Shown: positions 385-3,493 of the stretch, one piece after another | Layout of the letters: each line of letters begins with the position of its first letter | Numbering within the stretch: the stretch's first letter is position 1 | Made by a program: the position numbers and the translations under genes | DNA from: Gemella sanguinis ATCC 700632 | GTDB taxonomy: Bacteria > Bacillota > Bacilli > Staphylococcales > Gemellaceae | Length of the DNA stretch: 64,000 nucleotides | Direction of reading: 5' to 3' | NCBI RefSeq assembly: GCF_000701685.1 | Contig: NZ_JNJO01000002.1 | Coordinates: forward strand, 1-64,000 | The notes under the pieces: generated by a model | The model's input: the letters and a program-made list of their open reading frames with translations, nothing else | Databases searched by the model: none | Told to the model about the DNA's origin: nothing

Positions 385-545
385 ATTTCTGTAACTATTA
401 ATTTATACATATAAAGTATCCTTCCATATATCTAATTATACAAGAGTATTTAATTATTTCTTGACTATACATTCTCAATATTATATCCAAATTTTAATTA
501 TTATTCCATATAAAAAAAACTAACCTAAAGCATTCTATTTTATAT
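385..545. repeat. Direct repeat, copy A (partner at 3334-3493)
   Basis: About 160 bases match 3334-3493 in the same orientation with only scattered substitutions and one single-base length difference in an A-run. Weaker similarity appears to continue leftwards to about 235. Read on the minus strand, both copies carry TATAAT followed eight bases later by an ATG opening a nine-codon frame (M-E-G-[YC]-F-I-[CY]-I-N). Copy A keeps one arm of the terminator hairpin that is complete in copy B. The rest of 230-1020 holds only the short items listed separately. Confidence 0.8.
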
Positions 546-1060: not shown

Positions 1061-2014
1061 CTATTTTAATTTTTGTAATTCTAATTCATCTATTCCCATT
1101 ATATCTAATATATTTTCAAAAGTTACTGTCGCAAACTCTTTTCTATATTTTTTAAATATTTTTTCTAATTCTAAAATGAAATTTTGAGAATAATTTTTAT
1201 TTAATAAAATCTTTAAATATAATATAGCAACCATAATTCTGTTGTTATTATAATTTTCTATATTATAATACCTAGCTATTCTACTCAATCTTATATTTCC
1301 AAAATTCATATTATATAGTCTTTCATCATGAGCACATGAATTTCTAACCAAATTTATAATTTTTAATGCTGATTTTAAATCATCACTAGCTATCCTAATA
1401 TTATTAGCTGGTTTATGTTGCTTATTATACTTCTGAGAATAATACTTTGCTATAACATCTCTATCATTATCTTTATAAATATCATATAAGTACGATAAAT
1501 TTCCAATAGTTAAATAGTTAACTAATACCCATAATGGCACAGATTTATGTTCCTCTATATAGTGTTTAACTGCTCCATTTTTATCAACTTTGTCATGAAT
1601 AGTTTTGGTTAAAATAGATATTTGTTGTAATACCTTTTTAGGATTATTACTCACATAGTTTTGAATATCCAAATAAGAATTTTCCTCTGGATATCTTCTT
1701 GAAAATTCATGTGATAACACAGTTTTAAAAGAATTTTCAAAAATTAATATATATTTTAAAAATAAACTTCTTAACTCTCTATCAAATAGAAACAATGATT
1801 TTAGTTCATTAAAATGAGTTCCGTCTAAATACTGTTCTGGATCTATTGGATTACCTAAACTATTTTGTTTTAGAAATAAATCTTTATATCCATTGATTAC
1901 ATTATAATAATTTTCTTGTTCTAAAAATCTCTTAGGACTTCCATCAGTTGGAACATCAAGACCTCGTTTTCTTAGAATTTTTAATTGTTGATTAAATGTC
2001 TTATAGTCCTTCAT
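1061..2014 (-). CDS. Abi_2 (AbiD/AbiF-type) abortive-infection HEPN protein
   Basis: A 317-residue protein of the Abi_2 family, whose members are HEPN-fold RNases implicated in abortive phage infection. Seen in sequence: the family's F-D-R-x-L-R segment near residues 77-82, a P-L-W-V-L-V / L-T-I-G-N-L segment at 160-173, and an R224-N-S-C-A-H229 motif, which is the catalytic R-x4-H signature of HEPN nucleases. The ATG at 2014 is preferred over an upstream in-frame GTG because GGAG lies about eight bases before it and overlaps the GTG. It is transcribed alone from a promoter at 2078-2106, with a small hairpin RNA in its leader. Phage defence is inferred from the family; AbiF-like versus AbiD-like subtype cannot be settled by eye. 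Confidence 0.88.
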   Translation of the reverse strand: MKDYKTFNQQLKILRKRGLDVPTDGSPKRFLEQENYYNVINGYKDLFLKQNSLGNPIDPEQYLDGTHFNELKSLFLFDRELRSLFLKYILIFENSFKTVLSHEFSRRYPEENSYLDIQNYVSNNPKKVLQQISILTKTIHDKVDKNGAVKHYIEEHKSVPLWVLVNYLTIGNLSYLYDIYKDNDRDVIAKYYSQKYNKQHKPANNIRIASDDLKSALKIINLVRNSCAHDERLYNMNFGNIRLSRIARYYNIENYNNNRIMVAILYLKILLNKNYSQNFILELEKIFKKYRKEFATVTFENILDIMGIDELELQKLK

Positions 2015-2028
2015 AATTATCACTCCAT

Positions 2029-2072
2029 AAAAAATGGTCAGCGCACCTGATGCTTACTGACCTAATCCTATA
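2029..2072 (-). ncRNA. Candidate leader RNA ending in a terminator, upstream of the Abi_2 gene
   Basis: Transcription from the promoter at 2078-2106 would begin near 2071. It immediately meets GGTCAG ... CTGACC (2062-2057 with 2041-2036), with an inner GCA/TGC pairing, followed by six T residues. That is a complete intrinsic terminator before the gene's Shine-Dalgarno. Most transcripts would therefore be a ~40 nt structured RNA, with read-through supplying the Abi_2 mRNA. Structured RNAs upstream of abiF genes, and RNA antitoxins for AbiF-type HEPN proteins, have been reported. Whether this RNA belongs to that class is inference. Confidence 0.5.
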
Positions 2073-2077
2073 CACTA

Positions 2078-2106
2078 AGTATATACTAATTATACTCTTT
2101 TGTAAA
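2078..2106 (-). promoter_or_regulatory. Promoter of the leader RNA / Abi_2 gene
   Basis: On the minus strand TTTACA (2106-2101), a 17-base spacer and TATACT (2083-2078) make a good SigA-type promoter about 64 bases before the start codon. Confidence 0.7.
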
Positions 2107-3333: not shown

Positions 3334-3493
3334 ATTTCTGTAACTATTAATTTATATATATAAAGCATCCTTCCATATATCTAATTATACACGAGTATTT
3401 AATTATTTCTTGACTATACATTCTCAATATTATATCAAAACTTTAATTATTATTCCATATAAAAAAACTAACCCAAAGTATTCTATTTTATAT
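3334..3493. repeat. Direct repeat, copy B (partner at 385-545)
   Basis: Matches 385-545 almost base for base, in the same orientation. Copy B overlaps the terminator of the 3531-3857 gene. It is therefore probably the donor context, with copy A the displaced duplicate. Confidence 0.8.

Follow-up and report, generated by a model that had tools for sequence, protein, structure and literature searches.

A compact conserved RNA hairpin ahead of an AbiF-like HEPN gene in Gemella sanguinis, with gene-less copies in streptococcal prophages

An Abi_2 gene and its leader

The window, i.e., the whole stretch of DNA analyzed here, covers 64,000 nucleotides of Gemella sanguinis ATCC 700632. On its minus strand, a promoter is followed by a 43-nt structured RNA, a ribosome-binding site, and an intact Abi_2 gene of 317 aa whose ATG is at position 2014. 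The features are as follows.

2101..2106, minus strand: -35 hexamer TTTACA
2078..2083, minus strand: -10 hexamer TATACT, 6 nt upstream of the RNA
2029..2071, minus strand: structured RNA of 43 nt (5' tail AUAGGAUUA, hairpin, U-tract), supported by covariance model R1 (62.7 bits) and alignment A3
2036..2062, minus strand: hairpin GGUCAGU-AA-GCAU-CAG-GUGC-GCUGACC (7 bp, AA bulge, 4 bp, 3-nt loop)
2029..2034, minus strand: U-tract that completes an intrinsic-terminator-like element (read from the sequence; Abi_2-linked relatives have 5 U or more)
2023..2026, minus strand: Shine-Dalgarno GGAG of the Abi_2 gene (sequence)
1061..2014, minus strand: Abi_2/AbiF-like HEPN gene, 317 aa, R224-NSCA-H229 (Pfam PF07751, PADLOC, AlphaFold, Foldseek)

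The protein is matched by Pfam PF07751 (Abi_2) with an E-value of 1e-40 and 140.5 bits, the curated cut-off being 25.6, and by PADLOC as AbiD (E 1e-50). It carries the HEPN R-x4-H motif as RNSCAH, whose R and H are invariant in 23 aligned sequences. In a Foldseek search, the AlphaFold model (pLDDT 92) matched 8vz6 with TM 0.76/0.80 and E 2.7e-10, with no other match below 0.001, and a sequence profile of the protein also reaches 8vz6 (E 2.6e-9); this entry is PbAbiF solved with its antitoxin ncRNA bound. As modeled, the protein has the AbiF fold and is a member of the AbiF/Abi_2 HEPN family. It is the only Abi_2 found in its own genome. A near-identical direct repeat (window 405-490 and 3350-3440) flanks the Abi_2 gene together with a neighboring hypothetical gene (2273-2971) and might mark a mobile insertion.

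The promoter, TTTACA-17-TATACT, is of the sigma-A type and agrees with the consensus at 10 of 12 positions; in relatives, the hexamers are TTGACA and TATAAT, also 17 nt apart and at an equal distance from the RNA. Please note that another 10/12 promoter-like site lies at 2118-2089 and that this AT-rich stretch has many sites of the kind (50 observed, 38 expected from shuffles), so the promoter by itself is weak evidence; the call gains support because the 6-nt gap from the -10 box to the RNA is kept in more than 20 relatives.

Downstream, the RNA reads from 5' to 3' as a 9-nt tail, a 7-bp outer stem (GGTCAGT/GCTGACC, with U-G as the last pair), the AA bulge, a 4-bp inner stem (GCAT/GTGC), the 3-nt loop, and AUUUUUU. 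Its folding energy (2071-2029) is -13.8 kcal/mol vs a shuffle mean of -6.2 (z -3.5), and the RNA pattern has no match in shuffled windows. The hairpin is absent from the output of a generic terminator scan, probably owing to its AA bulge. The initial annotation had claimed an Abi_2/HEPN gene with an R-x4-H motif, preceded by a good promoter, a stem, a U-tract, and a Shine-Dalgarno sequence, and all of these elements are present on the minus strand; its promoter carries weight through the conserved spacing rather than on its own, its double stem of 6 + 3 bp (GGTCAG/CTGACC and GCA/TGC) measures 7 + 4 bp, and its RNA of about 40 nt is corrected to 43 nt.

Conservation of the 43-nt RNA and its relation to known systems

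Relatives of the Abi_2 protein with 60-73% identity were found by protein alone, so their leaders are unbiased toward the RNA. They comprise two Streptococcus prophages, 20 of the 22 loci of the protein search, and a broken copy in a relative within the genus Gemella. When genome and viral collections were scanned with a single protein, nothing came up; a three-protein alignment used as the query overcame this. The hosts of the 20 loci belong to Erysipelotrichaceae, Lachnospiraceae, Anaerococcus, Streptococcus, and others, a spread over several bacterial classes, and the two remaining loci hold more distant relatives, L059 (42% identity) and L062 (36%). The RNA precedes every Abi_2 gene of more than 60% identity with a readable leader, at a constant 6 nt after the -10 box; the leader of L051 sat on another contig and was recovered across the contig break. 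Between divergent pairs, identity is 0.89 in the RNA, 0.67 in the gene, 0.47 at third codon positions, and 0.34 in the promoter spacer. On the source genome, model R1 finds a single copy (62.7 bits, E 1.9e-9); this RNA was itself a row of the model, and the more than 20 independent relatives with the RNA came from the protein search.

Alignment A3 contains 19 distinct sequences, L059 being left out because MAFFT misplaced its one-base-longer loop. Standard pairs fill 99.5% of its pair cells, a value that falls to about 42% if the partner is slid by one column, and none of 500 shuffles matches the observed pairing or covariation score. The covariation is limited, since five of the 11 pairs never vary and two-sided changes occur in only two. 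RNAalifold on its own returns the identical structure. The RNA of L059, AUAAGAUCA-GGUCUGG-AA-UGCU-CGAG-GGCG-CCGGGCC, keeps the architecture with changed pairs; the leader of L062 is different from this RNA. Judged by these comparisons, the 43-nt element is a real conserved structured RNA, conserved far beyond chance. The unpaired tail, the AA bulge, and several stem pairs show hardly any variation, and because termination does not need them, a role beyond that of a bare terminator is favored. Plasmid records were also searched and gave no close copy of the RNA. At five loci (L006, L042, L060, L061, and L063), the RNA is intact and the Abi_2 gene is broken by stops or frameshifts.

Searched against Rfam, the leader gave chance matches only, and the abiF model (RF03085), at its gathering score, had no match in the leader, its relatives, or the source genome, whereas the Clostridioides difficile phage control, phiC2, scored 37.6 bits. 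The Rfam abiF consensus, CCCGCC-A-AGC...GCU-CAAAUC-GGCGGG, shares with our RNA an outer stem of 6-7 bp, a short inner stem, AAGC in the 5' strand, and the site before Abi_2; it differs in placing a 6-nt internal loop on the opposite, 3' side, and the U-tract is fused to the hairpin only in the RNA described here. We do not file this RNA as an abiF RNA because it lacks that loop and instead shows the AA bulge, on the 5' side, together with a single-stranded tail that is conserved. From the sequence comparison, it is a new variant within the known AbiF protein-RNA system, distinct from the Rfam abiF model. The layout, in contrast, appears general to many Abi_2 clades, as a hairpin-plus-U-run leader is present in 50 of 61 streptococcal Abi_2 loci (a simple script with lenient terminator calls) and visible, as a short element, in most Staphylococcales Abi_2 loci, and several of these leader RNAs, too, are single short hairpins; what is particular here is the sequence class. 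Of what the initial annotation had put forward or proposed to check, the covarying stem in leaders of homologous Abi_2 genes is borne out by A3, and a minimal AbiF system is the best-fitting reading (fold, covarying short RNA, apparently self-terminating), but membership in Rfam abiF and the implied peculiarity of the layout to this locus are not. Another single-hairpin leader, AAUAGGACCGCCCACC...GACAAGGCGGACAUUUUUUU (L136-L145), is conserved in a different streptococcal Abi_2 clade, and its 3'-side loop resembles the abiF layout.

The closest characterized parallel is RCd22-AbiFCd of the C. difficile prophage phi027, in which RCd22 and abiFCd are transcribed together, with most transcripts ending early, and RCd22 neutralizes AbiFCd in cis and in trans in a stem-dependent manner (PMC12373285). 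Shared are the Abi_2/HEPN gene, the upstream ncRNA, the sigma-A promoter, and a terminator ahead of the gene with read-through for the mRNA. However, RCd22 is 98-132 nt long and has two abiF motifs plus a terminator apart from them, whereas in the 43-nt RNA a single hairpin apparently doubles as conserved element and terminator. PbAbiF-AbiFr (8vz6; Zilberzwige-Tal et al., Cell 2025) shares the protein fold and the HEPN motif. AbiFr reportedly inhibits PbAbiF via nucleotides of a single-stranded bulge (PMC12737573, PMC12373285), and the abiF-consensus 3'-side loop, which our RNA lacks and in place of which it has the 5'-side AA bulge and the conserved 5' tail, may correspond to this bulge; an inhibitory contact here would then have to differ. 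A tandem-repeat antitoxin as in ToxIN was looked for in the leader, and a single hairpin with one model match was found. PbAbiF binds one RNA per monomer (PMC12737573), so AbiF systems can do without repeats. The arrangement is nevertheless that of a type III toxin-antitoxin locus by sequence, i.e., a conserved structured RNA directly upstream, a shared promoter, and a terminator between RNA and gene.

Copies of the RNA without an Abi_2 gene

Model R1 was run over genomes, including 284 of Streptococcus. At E 0.01, twenty streptococcal genomes match; one of the matches (L110) looks like a plain terminator, leaving 19 genomes. In nine of these, the RNA is linked to a cognate Abi_2 gene, which is broken in one case; in the other ten, it has no such link. 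In a search of the ten orphan genomes with the Abi_2 family, no cognate gene was found; six have no Abi_2 at E 1e-8, and the other four have only much weaker-scoring members located elsewhere. Further orphans are a second copy in Anaerococcus and a decayed copy in a related genus (L126:2085-2127, G015:C4), which lies directly behind the guaA stop codon. Weak R1 matches (about 35 bits or less, no Abi_2) were rejected as copies and taken as ordinary terminators. Two viral pattern matches were put down to chance; neither is near an Abi_2 gene, and one of them (L082, the other being L083) is inside a long ORF.

The orphans fall into three classes by context. In class a (L115, L116, L117, and L118), promoter and terminator are kept and the gene is gone: L116 and L117 are flanked by a methylase gene on one side and a large gene of restriction or helicase type on the other, L118 neighbors an S24 repressor and the integrase of a prophage, and KilA-N genes lie near L115. 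This context fits the earlier description of Abi2-family HEPN genes embedded in restriction operons (PMC3710099). Copies of class b (L119, L120, and L122) follow a DUF4325 gene and have restriction or helicase genes as neighbors. Those of class c (L121, L123, L124, and L125) lie in a late operon, between genes for an ArpU-like activator and terminase; the contigs of L121 and L125, judged by length and match, are also listed as viral in IMG/VR. L123, L124, and L125 have lost the U-tract, and 3 nt separate the end of the hairpin from a tRNA gene (for Glu, Tyr, and Arg, respectively). L124 is probably phage Javan291 in its host. The hairpins without a U-tract include the following.

L084:3501-3543: 3 nt before tRNA-Tyr, late operon of phage Javan291 (MK448727.1)
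L123:6973-7015: before tRNA-Glu, late operon, no cognate Abi_2
L125:6970-7008: before tRNA-Arg, late operon, no cognate Abi_2

Alignment A6, whose 13 distinct rows are mostly orphans, has two-sided changes in five pairs, and none of 500 shuffles reaches its covariation score. Compensatory changes are seen in the orphans themselves, e.g., GGCUAGG/CCUAGCC in L122 and GGUCGG/CCGGC in L121. All orphans checked have the AA bulge and keep 9-11 of the 11 pairs, one being lost in L118 and two in L126. Apparently, then, the structure is maintained in the absence of the gene and, in three prophages, of terminator function, suggesting a role for the hairpin besides ending transcription.

Proposed function and alternatives

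The conserved order of promoter, RNA, terminator, and gene, the covarying structure, the protein fold, and the catalytic motif emerge from sequence comparison, and we consider it likely that the locus is a minimal AbiF-type protein-RNA (type III-like) toxin-antitoxin or abortive-infection unit. By analogy with the characterized relatives, transcription from the single promoter would yield the 43-nt RNA, ending at its own hairpin and U-tract in vivo, and the HEPN nuclease would be translated from occasional read-through transcripts. The short RNA, made in abundance, would be recognized by the sequence of its stem, its AA bulge, and its 5' tail and would act as the antitoxin, binding the Abi_2 dimer and holding it in an inactive state; the trigger would be a phage attack in which the RNA is lost, setting the toxic RNase free. 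The hairpin could instead be a mere attenuator that limits expression of a toxic gene, the short RNA having no antitoxin role. Its intrinsic-terminator shape, its site just before the gene, and the U-tract kept in Abi_2-linked copies agree with this, but an attenuator does not call for sequence-level conservation of an unpaired tail and a bulge, for compensatory changes in gene-less copies, or for a hairpin that persists in four tRNA-fused records without the U-tract, and we regard it as improbable. Very doubtful, too, is an autoregulatory leader, with the Abi_2 protein binding the hairpin as an operator, rather than as an antitoxin, to tune its own transcription; sequence-specific conservation beside the gene would be expected then, and cis effects are also described for RCd22 (PMC12373285), yet the gene-less copies would be left unexplained.

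What the orphans do is a matter more evenly balanced. They could be relics, or terminators re-used after gene loss, with no counter-defense function, which we rate just short of an even chance: the class a copies hold promoter and terminator as if the gene alone had been lost, the guaA copy has lost pairs, and the three copies behind a DUF4325 gene are where a terminator would be useful. This may explain classes a and b. Standing against it are the compensatory changes of L122 and L121, the AA bulge in all orphans checked, and the hairpin kept, with its U-tract lost, before three different tRNA genes. For the phage-borne copies, it is plausible by analogy that they are antitoxin decoys against AbiF. 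Phage phiTE carries pseudo-ToxI, a copy of a type III antitoxin, and escapes abortive infection (PMC3475682); pseudo-ToxI and the RNA anti-CRISPRs (PMC10651486) are likewise phage-borne copies of an RNA used by a defense nuclease, although the toxin and effector families are others. As a decoy would be, the RNA is present (54.4 bits, Tyr version) in the Javan291 record (L084), with no Abi_2 toxin gene in the whole record. We only tentatively extend this to streptococcal temperate phages at large, whose solo RNAs in the late operon would be antitoxin mimics disarming AbiF-type abortive infection, with RNase P, rather than a terminator, maturing some of them from a hairpin-tRNA fusion whose tRNA might stand in for a cleaved one, and the hairpins of Javan1 and Javan173 (below) serving as decoys for other Abi_2 clades.

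The 43-nt RNA defines a compact class that Rfam does not contain; its partner is a HEPN nuclease from the lineage in which the Cas13 ancestor has been proposed to lie, and one hairpin apparently serves as recognition element and terminator at once. With so few parts, it lends itself to the question of which RNA features an AbiF nuclease must see. The prophage orphans fused to three tRNA genes offer a testable candidate for RNA-based evasion of AbiF defense, comparable to pseudo-ToxI and RNA anti-CRISPRs.

At the position of the Javan291 RNA, between the late promoter and a tRNA, sister phages have unrelated hairpins, which counts against the decoy reading.

L130 (Javan1): unrelated hairpin just before tRNA-Ser at 733
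L131 (Javan173): unrelated hairpin just before tRNA-Tyr at 912

The idea that they match leaders of other Abi_2 clades was tested and is unsupported: neither hairpin turned up in an Abi_2 leader. Given these two phages, a hairpin before a late tRNA could be a general phage feature into which an Abi-type RNA was recruited.
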